Shown here: in pieces, positions 4,556 to 11,602 of the stretch
How the letters are laid out: every line of letters begins with the position of its first letter
Numbering within the stretch: position 1 is the stretch's first letter
Virus record (IMG/VR): IMGVR_UViG_3300036790_000261
Location: 1 to 24,724 of that record
From: a virus
Length of the DNA stretch: 24,724 nt
Strand: one strand, 5' to 3'
Made by a program: the position numbers and the translations under genes
Notes under the pieces: model-generated
Seen by the model: only the letters and a program-made list of their open reading frames with translations
Told to the model about the DNA's origin: nothing
Database searches by the model: none

Positions 4556-4764
4556 TCCTCTGGTGGCGTCTCCGCAGGTGGCTGCTGCACCCGGTGGACA
4601 GCTGCCGCTGGTGGTGGAAGACGCGGCACGTGCCTCGGCCGGGCGACCGGGTTGTCGACTGCCGGGGGCGCCTGTCCCGGGTTGCCGCGGTTGACGACGA
4701 TGACGTGACGCTTGAAGACGGCTACCGCTGCTCGTGGATGCACTGCTGCAGCTGGCCGGAGTAG
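4552..4764 (+). CDS. Conserved Trp/Cys-rich small protein, 70 aa
   Basis: A 70-residue protein with the motif DSCRWWWKTRHVPRPGDRV (about residues 16-34), then a short beta-like segment and an RCSWMHCC ending. The early part reads as an amphipathic Trp/Arg-rich helix. I recall similar HPVDSCRWWW-type proteins in actinophages but no function. GTG 4552, which overlaps the previous stop (GTGA), is chosen over GTG 4531 because the shorter form avoids a 25-base overlap and GGCGGA lies 9 bases upstream. It is the last gene before the structured gene-free region. Confidence 0.65.
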   Translation: MILWWRLRRWLLHPVDSCRWWWKTRHVPRPGDRVVDCRGRLSRVAAVDDDDVTLEDGYRCSWMHCCSWPE

Positions 4765-4765
4765 A

Positions 4766-4854
4766 CCCGGGGCCATGCCAGGCACGTAGCCCACTACTGC
4801 TTCGCCCCGGGGCCATCCCAGGCACGTAGCCCACTACAGCTTCGCCCCGGGCCA
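4766..4854 (+). repeat. 40-bp tandem repeat, two copies plus 9 bases
   Basis: Units at 4766-4805 and 4806-4845 differ at two positions, and a third copy starts at 4846 but breaks off after about 9 bases. Each unit begins CCCGGGGCCAT and contains GGCACGTAGCCCACTAC. The first unit also has the small palindrome TGCCAGGCA. The array lies 225 bases before the terminase gene, where packaging (pac/cos) or replication sites often sit. Confidence 0.9.
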
Positions 4855-4897
4855 AATCTTTCGCGAAGTCCACTGGACGAACGCCCCGGGTCAGGTT

Positions 4898-4953
4898 CCC
4901 TCTCGTTCTTTAGCCTGCCTTCCGGCGAGAGGGGCGTTACGAGGAAGGCAGGC
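4898..4953 (+). ncRNA. Interlocked inverted repeats, possible pseudoknot
   Basis: Stem A is CCCTCTCG (4898-4905) with CGAGAGGG (4926-4933), 8 perfect pairs. Stem B is GCCTGCCTTCC (4913-4923) with GGAAGGCAGGC (4943-4953), 11 perfect pairs. The order is A5', B5', A3', B3', so they form an H-type pseudoknot with connectors of 7, 2 and 9 bases, or two mutually exclusive hairpins. If transcribed, this would be a stable RNA element. Transcription is not shown by the sequence, so the ncRNA label is tentative. Confidence 0.5.
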
Positions 4954-4957
4954 CAGG

Positions 4958-5052
4958 GAGCACCCCTCCGGCGGAACCGGCCCGTTACCTGGAAAGGCGT
5001 CATAGCCGATCTGGAGTAGAGCAGGTTCGACCCCTGTACCGGAGGGGTGCTC
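4958..5052 (+). ncRNA. tRNA-like element inside a 14-bp inverted repeat
   Basis: GAGCACCCCTCCGG (4958-4971) is perfectly complementary to 5039-5052. Near the 3' arm, 5021-5037 has the form of a tRNA T-arm: GCAGG, loop TTCGACC, CCTGT. The distance from 4966 to 5045 (80 bases) suits a tRNA with six matching acceptor pairs, but I cannot fold a proper anticodon arm; GGC-GTCATA-GCC (4996-5007) has a 6-base loop and only three pairs. It may be a decayed tRNA, a tRNA-like structure, or a packaging-site palindrome. Its 3' side ends 13 bases before the terminase -10 box. Confidence 0.35.
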
Positions 5053-5065
5053 TTTGCTGTGTCCG

Positions 5066-5071
5066 TAGTAT
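5066..5071 (+). promoter_or_regulatory. -10 box for leaderless terminase gene
   Basis: TAGTAT lies 6 bases before GTG 5078. No ribosome binding site precedes this GTG. ATG 5076 overlaps it in another frame, which gives only a short ORF. No clear -35 is visible; the 14-bp helix at 4958-5052 occupies that position. Confidence 0.5.
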
Positions 5072-5077
5072 CAGCAT

Positions 5078-6724
5078 GTGCAAAGTGCTACGCCGAGTGT
5101 CCTCTACGGGTCCCAGCGCCCCCGGTTCTTCACGTGCCCGCCGCGGCACGAGCACCGGGTTGAAGGCTGCCGTCCGTGCGCTGGCGGAGGCAGCGAGTAC
5201 GAGCCTGAGGTCGGCTGCGGCGACCAGCAGGCTATTGACGTGCTCGGCTGGGCGCAGGACGCTGCCGGGTACGAGCCTGACCCGTGGCAGAGCTGGTTCC
5301 TGACTCAGGCGCTCGGCACCCTGCCCGACGCGACCTGGGCGTCGACTGACGTCGGCCTGGTGGTCAGCCGCCAGAACGGCAAGGGCACCATCCTGGAAAT
5401 CCGCGAGCTCGGCGGGCTGTTCGTGCTCGGCGAAGAACTGATCATCCACACGGCGCACGAGTTCAAGACTGCGGCTGAGCACTTCCGCCGGGTCAAGGCA
5501 GCGTTCGACGACCACCCGGCGCTGCGCAAGCGGGTCAAGCGGATCAGCGGCTCGCACGGCGAGGAAGCGGTCGAGCTGTTCCCGCAGCCCACCCTGATCT
5601 TCGGGCCCGGCCGCAAGCAGATCACCCGCAGGGTTGCCGGCCGGCTCCGGTTCCTCGCCCGGTCCAAGGGCTCCGGCCTCGGCTTCTCCTGCGACTGCCT
5701 GGTCTACGACGAGGCGATGATCCTGACCGAGGACCAGGTGGCCGCGTCCCTGCCGACGATGTCCGCCCGCGCTAACCCGCAGATCTGGTACACCGGCTCC
5801 GCCGGCCGTGAGGACAGCTTCCAGTTCGCCGCGATCCGCCAGCGCCTGGTCAAGGGCACCCGCGACCTGTGCGCCGCCGAGTGGAGCATCGACCCGCATA
5901 ATGACGGCTGCACCCGGGACGAGGAAACCGGGCGCGAGTCCAACATGTTCGTCACCTGCACCAAGCACGACGACCGTGATGTGCCGAAAAGCTGGGCGAA
6001 GGCCAACCCCGGTTACGGGTACCGGATCAGCGAGAAGTTCACCCGCGACACCGAGCTCAAGGGCATGCCCGCCCACAAGTTCGACCGGGAGCGCCTAGGG
6101 GTCGGGGACTGGCCGCAGCCGGAGGCGCCGTGGGCGGTTATCAGCGAGATCAGCTGGCAGAAGCTTGCCGTCGGGCGCGATGACGCCGGGTTCCCCGTGC
6201 AGCCCATCGTGTTCGCCGCGGACATCGACGAGGACGGCCGCAGCGCCACCATCAGCGCCGCCTGGGACCATGACAGCAAGAAGGTCGTGCTGGAGATCCC
6301 GAAGGGCTGCTCGCGGCAGGGCAGCGACTGGGTGATGGACAAGCTGACCGCCATGTACGAGAAGTGGCGCCCGCTGGCCGTCGTGATGCCGAAGAGCGGT
6401 CCCTGCGCCGCGCTCATCCCCGACGGGAAGAAGAAGTGGCGCGAGCGGCTTGTAGAGATAGGCACCGCGGAAGAGGCAGCTGCTTTCGCCTGGTTCCTGC
6501 AGCAGGCCCGTGCCGAGTCAATGTGGCACTTCGGCCGGGACGGGGCCCCCACCCTGTGGCACGCTGTTGCCACCGCGGCGACTCGTGTTGTCGGGGACGG
6601 CGGCAAGGCATGGTCCCGGCGGGACAGCGAGAGCGACATCACCCCGGTCACCAGCGCTACCCTCGCCGCCTACGTGCTGAACCGGGAGCGCCGCAGCTAC
6701 AACCTGCTCGACTCGATTGGTTAG
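5078..6724 (+). CDS. terL: Terminase large subunit
   Basis: This is the packaging motor: an N-terminal ATPase that drives DNA into the procapsid through the portal and a C-terminal nuclease that cuts concatemers. Length 548 residues is usual. An N-terminal extension (C20, H24, H26, C31, C34) looks like a zinc knuckle. Walker A is SRQNGKGT (97-104), Walker B LVYDEA (208-213, D211/E212), and the coupling motif YTGSAG (238-243). The nuclease begins near FAADIDEDGRSA, with D382 a likely metal ligand. The family is the Terminase_1-type of actinophages. GTG 5078 is the most 5' start compatible with the zinc knuckle, and TAGTAT 6 bases upstream suggests a leaderless mRNA. A TTAGGAG site at its 3' end starts the next gene. 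Confidence 0.93.
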   Translation: MQSATPSVLYGSQRPRFFTCPPRHEHRVEGCRPCAGGGSEYEPEVGCGDQQAIDVLGWAQDAAGYEPDPWQSWFLTQALGTLPDATWASTDVGLVVSRQNGKGTILEIRELGGLFVLGEELIIHTAHEFKTAAEHFRRVKAAFDDHPALRKRVKRISGSHGEEAVELFPQPTLIFGPGRKQITRRVAGRLRFLARSKGSGLGFSCDCLVYDEAMILTEDQVAASLPTMSARANPQIWYTGSAGREDSFQFAAIRQRLVKGTRDLCAAEWSIDPHNDGCTRDEETGRESNMFVTCTKHDDRDVPKSWAKANPGYGYRISEKFTRDTELKGMPAHKFDRERLGVGDWPQPEAPWAVISEISWQKLAVGRDDAGFPVQPIVFAADIDEDGRSATISAAWDHDSKKVVLEIPKGCSRQGSDWVMDKLTAMYEKWRPLAVVMPKSGPCAALIPDGKKKWRERLVEIGTAEEAAAFAWFLQQARAESMWHFGRDGAPTLWHAVATAATRVVGDGGKAWSRRDSESDITPVTSATLAAYVLNRERRSYNLLDSIG

Positions 6725-7062: not shown

Positions 7063-7533
7063 CTAACGTACCTGGAAGTACATCGTTGGCTTCCAGTACA
7101 CGTTCCAGGCGTAGTCGCCGACCCTGGTCCCCTCGGTCCGGGTGCCGAACGTCACGTCGTGCCCGCGGTCAACGAACTCAACGTGGTCGTCGCCGTAGAA
7201 CGCCAGGTCCCCGGCCACCGGGTGGTACGTGCGGACGAGGATGCCGTCGGCGACGCCTGTGGCGAGCATTGACCAGGTGTCCCGGGGCATGCTGATACCG
7301 AGCTGGCGAGCCGCCCAGTACACGAGCCCGCTGCAGTCGAACGTGGTCGGCCCGGCCCCGCCGTCGGCGTACCAGTCACCGGTCCGGGTTTTCGCCATCG
7401 CCATGACGCTCGCCCCGCGGTCGGTGAAGACAGCCGCGTGCGCGGGAACCGGCAGCAGGAACCCTGCGATGGCGAGCGCAGCGACGGTAACGGCCGCGAG
7501 GCGAGCTAGAGCGCCCTTGCGAAGCAACCTCAT
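7063..7533 (-). CDS. Secreted NlpC/P60 peptidoglycan endopeptidase
   Basis: A 156-residue cell-wall hydrolase. Residues 1-33 form a Sec signal peptide (MRLLRKGALAR, hydrophobic core, PVPAHA then A). The mature protein is a compact NlpC/P60 domain: FDCSGL puts the catalytic Cys at 67, GDLAFYGDDHVEF puts the His at 117, and H125 is a candidate third residue. These enzymes cut the D-gamma-Glu to diaminopimelate bond of stem peptides. It is the last gene of the minus-strand cassette; its ATG overlaps the previous stop (ATGA). Having its own export signal means it need not depend on a classical holin. A structural tail lysin is a less likely alternative, given the signal peptide. Confidence 0.85.
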   Translation of the reverse strand: MRLLRKGALARLAAVTVAALAIAGFLLPVPAHAAVFTDRGASVMAMAKTRTGDWYADGGAGPTTFDCSGLVYWAARQLGISMPRDTWSMLATGVADGILVRTYHPVAGDLAFYGDDHVEFVDRGHDVTFGTRTEGTRVGDYAWNVYWKPTMYFQVR

Positions 7534-7898
7534 GGTACGTCCAGCGGCGCGTTCAGCCGGGCGACAACGGCGTCGGAGTCGGCGCGCATCTGCGCGATGA
7601 ACGCGTCGGTGTCGTCGGTCGGGTCGATGACGTGGAACGCGCCGGAGACCTGGCTGGCCGGGATGACCGGGAATTCTGTGGTGTCGCCGCTGCGCGGGGG
7701 CCAGTAGTCGTCGTTCCACTCGGGCAGCTCGTAGGCGGCGCCGTCGTAGTCGGGCAGCTTCTTGTCGGCGAGGACGTGCCACACCTCAGCGTCACCTTGC
7801 CGGGTGCGGCGGATGTCCCGGTACCAGACGAAGCAGGTGACGGACAGCAGGGCGAACAGGACGATCAGGCCGGAGCCGACCATGTGCAGCACAGACAC
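7530..7898 (-). CDS. Single-TM protein of lysis cassette
   Basis: A 122-residue protein with one TM segment near the N-terminus (VGSGLIVLFALLSVTCFVW, residues 7-25), a basic stop-transfer stretch (YRDIRRTRQ) and an acidic, Pro-rich soluble domain of about 90 residues. GTG 7898 is preferred because GGAG lies 5 bases upstream; GTG 7913 or 7919 are in-frame alternatives that would overlap the upstream gene. It sits between two exported wall hydrolases. A holin-like or spanin-like role is possible, but single-TM proteins with large cytosolic tails are not typical holins. Confidence 0.65.
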   Translation of the reverse strand: MSVLHMVGSGLIVLFALLSVTCFVWYRDIRRTRQGDAEVWHVLADKKLPDYDGAAYELPEWNDDYWPPRSGDTTEFPVIPASQVSGAFHVIDPTDDTDAFIAQMRADSDAVVARLNAPLDVP

Positions 7899-7909
7899 GC
7901 TTACTCCGT

Positions 7910-8590
7910 TCACTTGCACACCCAGGGCGCGAAGGAATCCCCGGCGGCCCGGAACTTGGCGACGGCGTTGGCCGCGTTGACGGACGGGTTGGTCAGGCTG
8001 CCGGGCAGGACCGCGCCGAGGATCTGCCAGACGCCGGTCGCGCCCGACGGGTTGTAGGCGTCCGGGTTGAAGCCGCTCTCGCAGTAGGCGATCTCGACGG
8101 CATGGGGCTCAGCCCATGAGGGGCCGCCCGCGCCAAGCCACAGCTGCCCGACTTCCGCTGCCGACAGCACGCCGCCGCTGTACGCCGTGCTCGCCTGGGG
8201 GGGAGGCGCAGACGCGGCGCGGGCGCTGGTGCTGGCTAGAGCGGCAGGGGCGGGCTGCGCGGCGGCGCGGGCGGCAGCTTGGGCCGCGGCGATGGCGGCT
8301 GCTTTCTGCGCGGCGAGTTCAGCGAGGTACTGCAGGTGCGCAGTGTGAGCGAGGTGCGCGGCGTGCGCCTGGGCGGCGGTCCAGCTTGCCGTCCAGCGGG
8401 CCGCGGCGGTTGCCCGGTAGTCCGCTGACACCTGGGTTACGGCGCTGAGAACGGGTAGGGACGGCTTAAGCGGTGACGCCTGGGCCGCGGTCACCAGGAC
8501 CGTGCCGAGGACGAGCGCGAGGCTTGCTGACAGTCCCGTCAGAGTCACCCGCAGATAAGCCGAGAAGGGTGTAAAAACCCTGGCCAGCAT
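7910..8590 (-). CDS. Exported transglycosylase/lysozyme-like wall hydrolase
   Basis: A 226-residue protein that cuts glycan strands of peptidoglycan. Residues 15-38 are a signal peptide or anchor (LTGLSASLALVLGTVLVTAAQA). Residues 58-135 are an Ala-rich helical linker (many AHL, AQAAA, ARAA units). The C-terminal domain (143-226) has VEIAYCESGFNPDAYNP with catalytic Glu at 171, then SGATGVWQI and a closing FAPWVCK, the pattern of SLT/Rpf-type lysozyme-fold domains of actinobacteria, including the Cys pair (C170, C225). ATG 8590 has AAAGGA 6 bases upstream. It is the first gene of the minus-strand cassette. Confidence 0.85.
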   Translation of the reverse strand: MLARVFTPFSAYLRVTLTGLSASLALVLGTVLVTAAQASPLKPSLPVLSAVTQVSADYRATAAARWTASWTAAQAHAAHLAHTAHLQYLAELAAQKAAAIAAAQAAARAAAQPAPAALASTSARAASAPPPQASTAYSGGVLSAAEVGQLWLGAGGPSWAEPHAVEIAYCESGFNPDAYNPSGATGVWQILGAVLPGSLTNPSVNAANAVAKFRAAGDSFAPWVCK

Positions 8591-10992: not shown

Positions 10993-11538
10993 TTACGTTG
11001 AGGGAGGTGGCGGATGCCTGAGCACGGTTTCTCGCGCTCGCCGGATTACTTCAACGGGAATCAGGCCAAGGTCGAATCGCCGGTGATGGTTCGGGCACAG
11101 CATGACTACATTGCTCAGCGTGTCGGTGCCACCGTTTTTGCGCGCGATGATGTGGCAGACGTCGCAGGGTGCTCCGTCCCAGTCGCAGATAGCACAGCGG
11201 TCGGCGAACGAGCGGCGAATTGCTTTCCGGAAGGTGGATGTCAGCCGGTAGTTCTGCTGTACGCGTCCCGTCATGCGGCGGCTGTGGCCGCGATTTTTGC
11301 AGAGCAGCGAGCAGTACGCGCCGTTGGGTCGTACGGACGTGTAGTAGGTGAAGGGTTTCCCGCACTCTTTGCACGGCTTGGTAATCGGGGCTGTTCCAGC
11401 AGCTGTGTTGACTTCCCGTTCGTGCGCCCGGTGACAAGGTACCGAGCAGAAGGTCACCTTCGCGTCGCGTTTAGGTCCACGCGACAGGATCGGGCCGTCG
11501 CAGTGCTTACAGGTCTTGCCTGGGACGAATCTAGACAC
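10993..11538 (-). CDS. HNH endonuclease with two zinc ribbons
   Basis: A 181-residue protein. Two CxxC pairs with later CSxxC partners (CKHC with CSVPC; CKEC with CSLLC) form two N-terminal zinc ribbons. The C-terminal HNH domain has CAIC, then CDVCHIIARKNGG and SNVVMLCPNHHRRFDLG, with the HNH His in CHII and the NHH near the end. Such free-standing enzymes are usually homing endonucleases. GTG 11538 is chosen over TTG 11556 because the minus-strand TACACT box sits 6 bases before it. It is antisense to the head operon, between portal and protease, consistent with insertion of a mobile gene. Confidence 0.85.
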   Translation of the reverse strand: MSRFVPGKTCKHCDGPILSRGPKRDAKVTFCSVPCHRAHEREVNTAAGTAPITKPCKECGKPFTYYTSVRPNGAYCSLLCKNRGHSRRMTGRVQQNYRLTSTFRKAIRRSFADRCAICDWDGAPCDVCHIIARKNGGTDTLSNVVMLCPNHHRRFDLGLIPVEVIRRARETVLRHPPPPST

Positions 11539-11544
11539 TGCTTT

Positions 11545-11550
11545 AGTGTA
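11545..11550 (-). promoter_or_regulatory. -10 box for leaderless HNH gene
   Basis: On the minus strand this reads TACACT, 6 bases before GTG 11538. No ribosome binding site is present. It shows that the leaderless geometry holds on the minus strand as well. Confidence 0.5.
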
Positions 11551-11602
11551 CGGCAATCAGTACGACAGACCGGAGCTAGCGCTCGAAGGAGAGGTCTTTA
11601 GG

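Follow-up and report, generated by a model that had tools for sequence, protein, structure and literature searches.

The question raised by this locus is whether two interlocked perfect inverted repeats upstream of a phage terminase gene belong to a structured RNA and, if so, to what kind of RNA. The analysed window, meaning the whole stretch of 24,724 nucleotides, opens a virus record of 122,331 bases, of which it makes up the first 24.7 kb, and contains the head module of a tailed phage, with genes for the terminase large subunit (PHROG 9), portal, protease and capsid. The terminase gene, terL, begins with GTG and occupies 5078..6724 on the plus strand (PHROG 9, 2.8e-59). Among 50,697 phage records, the best terminase match reaches about 34% identity and comes from an actinobacterial phage; this comparison revealed no isolated phage close to the window. 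Relatives of terL in IMG/VR range in identity from 100% (L002, in which the region upstream of terL is likewise identical to the window) down to about 46%. The head module is also interspersed with genes on the minus strand: NlpC/P60 and transglycosylase-like genes (7063-8590), likely lysis genes, lie opposite to and between terL and the portal gene, and an HNH endonuclease gene (10993-11556), probably a homing endonuclease, lies between the portal and protease genes.

Interlocked repeats and a candidate pseudoknot

The original prediction described an 8-bp and an 11-bp perfect inverted repeat that interleave, and both are present exactly as described. On the plus strand, stem A pairs CCCTCTCG (4898..4905) with CGAGAGGG (4926..4933) and stem B pairs GCCTGCCTTCC (4913..4923) with GGAAGGCAGGC (4943..4953), both perfectly, leaving loops of 7 nt (L1), 2 nt (L2) and 9 nt (L3). 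Accurate for these repeats, that description overlooked a competitor of stem A (a third repeat, 4880-4887/4931-4938, of 8 bp), a 14-bp repeat (4958-4971/5039-5052) and the tRNA-like domain considered below. The repeats had also been thought hard to explain by chance, and they are indeed rare. When all 24,724 nt of the window were shuffled with dinucleotides preserved, interlocked stems of at least 8 and at least 11 bp arose in 7 of 1000 shuffles and in none of 60 in a smaller set addressing the same question. In the unshuffled window, only the A/B pair and one other, which shares stem B, interlock with stems of at least 7 and at least 8 bp. Since the repeats were picked post hoc, the shuffle rarity is not proof; it is suggestive, and an origin by chance alone is improbable, if still possible.

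Comparison with relatives speaks more directly to an RNA. A diverged copy of the pseudoknot was found only in L004 and L005, which share one and the same sequence, so that two distinct sequences are available in all. Over 4890-4960, the window and L004 differ by nine substitutions and two indels. The four substitutions that fall within stems are all compensatory and form two double changes: T4903-A4928 (stem A) and T4916-A4950 (stem B) have each become C-G in L004, where stem B also gains one bulged T (1 nt), and no pair is broken. At least two compensated pairs with none broken had a probability of about 0.0008 in a random-substitution simulation. The search for compensating changes in stems A and B thus yielded, in L004/L005, one double change for each stem, and the predicted RNA-type structure is borne out by changes in both stems across two independent sequences. 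Interlocked helices with compensatory change, as expected of an H-type pseudoknot, are accordingly seen, in these two sequences only.

The original prediction had left the choice between a pseudoknot and two mutually exclusive hairpins undecided. The covariation argues for the pseudoknot; the 5′ arm of the competing helix (4880-4887) is missing from L004, so the pseudoknot is favoured over the competing hairpin, and 4880-4887/4931-4938 was also rejected as an extension of stem A. The summed stem energies, which leave out the pseudoknot penalty (stem A, -13.2 kcal/mol; stem B, -21.6 kcal/mol), are stronger than the best nested folds of 4890-4957 (-24.6 kcal/mol) and 4880-4957 (-28.6 kcal/mol) and about level with a nested fold that draws on extra 5′ sequence (4872-4957, -33.5 kcal/mol). 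For the conserved stretch, the summed stems are better than the best nested fold by about 9-10 kcal/mol in the window and L004 alike, again with the penalty excluded. The pseudoknot is therefore the best-supported of the predicted folds, resting on two sequences. It is absent from L003 and L010, and upstream of terL in the other relatives nothing comparable was found outside L004, the remaining candidates having stems so short that chance would account for them. We also observed that CGTTACnnGGAA occurs twice, at 4935-4946 in the pseudoknot and at 4983-4994 in the tRNA-like domain; its two copies in L004 differ at 1 of 12 positions, and the pair may be a partial duplication.

The tRNA-like domain

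Four nucleotides 3′ of stem B, on the plus strand, begins a predicted tRNA-like cloverleaf (4958..5052) closed by the 14-bp perfect stem (4958-4971/5039-5052), and this segment folds better than its shuffles (z = -4.3). Within it lie a D-arm-like hairpin, CGG-AACCGGC-CCG (4972..4984), whose G4980 is the counterpart of tRNA G19; a long middle arm in the position of the anticodon arm (4985..5019), composed of 4 bp, an unpaired A5015, 5 bp and a 16-nt apical loop; and a T-arm, GCAGG-TTCGACC-CCTGT (5021..5037), with a canonical T-loop and a form common to phage tRNA genes. The minimum-energy fold of this 3′ domain is the cloverleaf in L003 and L010 only, and a nested long hairpin in the window and L004. 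Two further readings of the middle arm were rejected: an apical GGC/GCC hairpin, which is broken in L010, and a tRNA-Sec reading of the UCA in the loop, which is UCG in L010.

We aligned the cloverleaf across four lineages, all of them related phages: the window, L003, L004/L005 and L010. The flanks change, yet core identity stays at 96-100%; in L003 the core is 96% identical to the window over 76 nt, next to an unrelated 5′ flank and flanks that cannot be aligned. On this alignment, 98.2% of pair cells are paired and 8 pairs have changed on both sides, giving a covariation score of 0.393 against 0.209 for shuffled alignments (0 of 500 as high) and at most 0.137 for slid versions of the structure. 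The outer acceptor-like stem has been rewritten in sequence across the lineages with its pairing retained, and the middle arm is paired in 100% of cells, with U-A replaced by C-G and U-G by U-A in L010. One T-stem pair is G-C in L003 and L010 and G-U in the window and L004. The G-U pairs in the T-stem and the middle arm assign the RNA to the plus strand, which is the strand of terL. A D-loop/T-loop pair of the G19-C56 type (columns 19/68) is G-C in three lineages and A-U in L010, a single event, and this one paired change leads us to predict an L-type tertiary contact.

We then asked how far the element is a tRNA. It shares with tRNA the acceptor, D and T arms, the GG of the D-loop, the G19-C56-type contact (by sequence, as a single event) and a 5-bp T-stem with a TTCRANY loop, which reads GCAGG TTCGACC CCTGT/C in the window, L003 and L004; the loop of L010 is TTTGACC. 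It differs in that the middle arm has 9 bp, a bulged A and a 16-nt loop where tRNA has a 5-bp anticodon stem and a 7-nt loop, in that the acceptor-like stem is 10-14 bp long and in that no CCA is encoded. ARAGORN called no tRNA and no tmRNA at the element, and the Rfam tRNA model found no match in the window, with a weak tRNA-Sec match of 15.1 bits in L003; both programs miss the element because of this middle arm, which is unlike an anticodon arm. Judged from its sequence and predicted fold, the element is tRNA-like and is not a tRNA by the usual definition. A scan of the whole window with all 4227 Rfam families gave no family at threshold, and permissive thresholds added only chance matches to microRNA models. 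DNA similarity searches of the 50,697 phage records found no relative of the element; the best weak matches of its tRNA-like part were mycobacteriophage tRNA-Lys genes. Pattern scans of viral contigs and 84,980 prokaryote genomes, with matches inspected or model-scored, produced no further member, and a match in L083 was rejected as a chance match in coding sequence. All other matches from these scans scored at most about 22 bits, versus 105-110 bits for the four members under covariance model R1, which was built from the four element sequences with no tRNA among the inputs. When R1 was run on 40 phage records, ARAGORN tRNA genes nevertheless made up 8 of its 10 best non-member matches (Leu, Val, Asn, Asn, Ser, Ser, Arg and Glu). 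On these comparisons, the predicted tRNA-like domain is better supported and more widely conserved than the pseudoknot.

We propose that the two domains belong to one plus-strand phage non-coding RNA of about 165 nt (4890..5056), with a 5′ H-type pseudoknot domain, a tRNA-like domain and a terminator tail, which would end at its own closing stem; we regard this reading as probable, though with reserve. Its 5′ end is placed at 4890 because similarity to L004 begins there, and from this point the block matches L004 at 94% identity across 203 nt, whereas identity is 82% in the longer match that takes in terL. In favour of this reading, the element occupies, in all four lineages, a gap behind a gene of its own strand. 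Since the pseudoknot is missing from L003 and L010, which have the tRNA-like domain without it, the two domains need not form one RNA. They could instead be unrelated neighbours: a tRNA-like RNA standing on its own, as an atypical or degenerate tRNA gene of the phage, next to a pseudoknot in the 3′ untranslated region of the left-arm genes. The copy in L010 fits such a separation, as it lies beyond terL on the opposite strand, 28 nt behind a gene of the post-terL region and beside a CCA-encoding tRNA-like element; such gaps are a common place for phage tRNAs. Against it, the spacing from pseudoknot to closing stem is the same few nucleotides in both phages that have the pseudoknot, similarity starts at the 5′ edge of the pseudoknot, and the middle arm lacks the 7-nt anticodon loop of a tRNA gene. 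We consider two unrelated neighbours unlikely, though a reading to be taken seriously. The second tRNA-like element of L010 (L010:4706-4785, minus strand, CCA encoded) stands in tandem with the first; a palindrome, GGTTACGCGCGTAACC, forms a hairpin in place of its anticodon loop, and it has a weak tRNA-Sec model match of 13.7 bits. Elsewhere, the phage record contains four ordinary tRNA genes, Arg ACG, Thr GGT, Gln CTG and Met CAT (L091:18100-18173, L093:12253-16941).

Probable promoter, terminator-like end and upstream repeats

The relation of the element to terL depends on where terL transcription begins. A conserved -10-like hexamer, TAGTAT (5066..5071, plus strand), is a candidate leaderless terL promoter: TANNAT occurs exactly 6 nt before the terL GTG in the window, L003, L004, L007, L008 and L010, and no ribosome-binding site is evident before the GTG in these six phages. 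A TANNAT-to-start layout without a ribosome-binding site is that of a leaderless actinobacterial promoter, and terL and the packaging genes are likely driven from such a promoter at 5066-5080. Transcripts from TANNAT would begin at the GTG, so the element would precede the terL mRNA and not form part of it. No promoter-like site was found upstream of the element.

This arrangement bears on the roles first suggested for the repeats, an attenuator before terminase or a packaging RNA by analogy with phi29. The element does lie 125 nt before terL on the same strand and, like the phi29 packaging RNA, would be a structured phage RNA near packaging functions. However, the -10-like hexamer, conserved 6 nt before the GTG, sits 3′ of the whole element, and an attenuator is accordingly not favoured. 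L006-L008 have a very similar terL (79-84% identity), yet lack the element, and the tRNA-like part of L010 lies beyond terL on the other strand. The phi29 analogy also fared poorly: none of the 4227 Rfam families, the phi29 pRNA family included, reaches threshold in the window, and terL is an ordinary PHROG-9 terminase. A terL leader or attenuator, or a packaging RNA working with terminase, is thus highly improbable.

The 3′ end of the element has a terminator-like character, as the 3′ arm of the closing stem is followed by TTT (5039..5055, plus strand), and a scan found 2 terminator-like sites where 0.2 were expected. The sequence after the 14-bp stem is TTTGCTG, a T-run short for a strong terminator, and the loop of this stem is the entire cloverleaf. 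Inverted repeats of 9-20 bp occur at the same place in many terL homologues (L003, L006, L008, L018, L024, L034, L055 and others), and in the window the closing stem of the mimic together with TTT may fill that role. It is conceivable, then, that the element is plain punctuation, separating the left-arm genes from the leaderless terL promoter as a terminator and insulator. The conserved T-loop and D-loop, the matched tertiary pair and the pseudoknot would all be superfluous for a terminator, however, and the core remains 96-100% identical despite its changing flanks; we hold punctuation alone to be quite unlikely. In L003, a 20-bp perfect hairpin (L003:2915-2984) lies between the tRNA-like element and terL, and the closing stem of the window element can be aligned with the 3′ arm of this hairpin, as if one and the same 3′ arm paired, in the two phages, with 5′ arms located on opposite sides of the tRNA mimic.

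Immediately upstream of the pseudoknot, four GCCCCGGG-type cores (4764..4892, plus strand) start at 4764, 4804, 4844 and 4883, at a spacing of 39-40 bp; they lie within and close to two direct repeats of 40 bp. Similar arrays of 39-42 bp are present at the same place in L010 and L003 and absent from L004. These DNA repeats are probably separate from the RNA, and operators or terminase-binding iterons are possible identities for them. Together with such iterons, the interlocked arms could themselves be a DNA site for a protein, either the terminase small subunit at pac/cos or a repressor, and DNA dyads too would survive double changes. The T-loop and the G-U pairs, by contrast, are RNA features, interlocked arms of 8 and 11 bp would be an odd shape for a dimer site, and L004 keeps the stems without the iterons. 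A DNA site is therefore very unlikely.

Known tRNA mimics and a possible role

Plant RNA viruses, bacterial Y RNAs and tmRNA all offer well-known examples of tRNA mimicry. In the plant viruses, the mimic stands at the 3′ end of the RNA with a pseudoknot just upstream, and the proposed RNA shares both the 3′-terminal mimic and the upstream pseudoknot; it differs in belonging to a double-stranded DNA phage, in having an ordinary helix and no pseudoknot as its acceptor and in lacking a CCA end. No tmRNA match was obtained at the element with either Rfam or ARAGORN. Y RNAs have a Ro-binding stem where the element has its 5′ pseudoknot. Y RNA models gave no match over 4740-5120 at E <= 10, and the phage record itself has no Ro60/TROVE gene (PF05731). 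A Y RNA identity was rejected on the model scan and on this search of the phage record, although bacterial Y RNA, or YrlA, is likewise a non-coding RNA that bears a tRNA-like domain (PMC7790460).

Atypical tRNAs, including tRNA-Sec, tRNA-Pyl and allo-tRNA, have been reviewed (PMC7609411), and the passages of that review on these molecules offer further likenesses. In M. alvus tRNA-Pyl, as described there, the acceptor and D stems meet without a linker base and the anticodon-side stem leaves an A unpaired on its 3′ side; the element shares the missing linker base and has an unpaired A on the 3′ side of its middle stem. Allo-tRNA is defined in the same source by a 12-bp acceptor plus T domain in the 8/4 or 9/3 form, whereas in the element the acceptor-like stem has 10-14 bp and the T-stem 5 bp. 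Also comparable are irregular sequences resembling allo-tRNA from soil metatranscriptomes (Mukai et al. 2017, via PMC7609411), which could not serve translation in E. coli and some of which stand in tandem. The element resembles them as an irregular tRNA-like RNA with a tandem form, but they keep the 8/4 or 9/3 acceptor domain, and the review's account of them reports no pseudoknot or phage packaging context.

How might the favoured plus-strand RNA be made and used? A left-arm transcript, or a short one from an unrecognised promoter, would cross 4890-5056, and the pseudoknot and tRNA mimic would fold as the transcript emerges. The 14-bp acceptor stem and the T-run may then end the left-arm transcript, with terL starting from its own leaderless promoter. 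In the released RNA, the pseudoknot could shield the 5′ side as a stability or anchoring domain, and tRNA-binding proteins may recognise the RNA through its elbow, formed by the D-loop and T-loop. Possible partners would include RNase P, a T-loop pseudouridine synthase and a tRNA-attacking defence nuclease. We infer the single transcript, its termination by the element and the engagement of tRNA enzymes from these features. Going further, we tentatively suggest a new class of non-coding RNA in DNA phages that joins a 5′ pseudoknot to a tRNA mimic without an anticodon. Such an RNA would offer a decoy or platform to enzymes that handle tRNA, or to host defences that target it, and would terminate its own transcript through the acceptor stem of the mimic. 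Our search of the open-licence literature turned up no double-stranded DNA phage described as having a tRNA mimic that covaries, lacks an anticodon and is fused to a pseudoknot, which is weak evidence of novelty. Since gene finders and Rfam are blind to the element, such elements may be common yet missed. A conserved phage tRNA decoy, if this is what the element is, would be directly relevant to how phages contend with tRNA-cutting defences.
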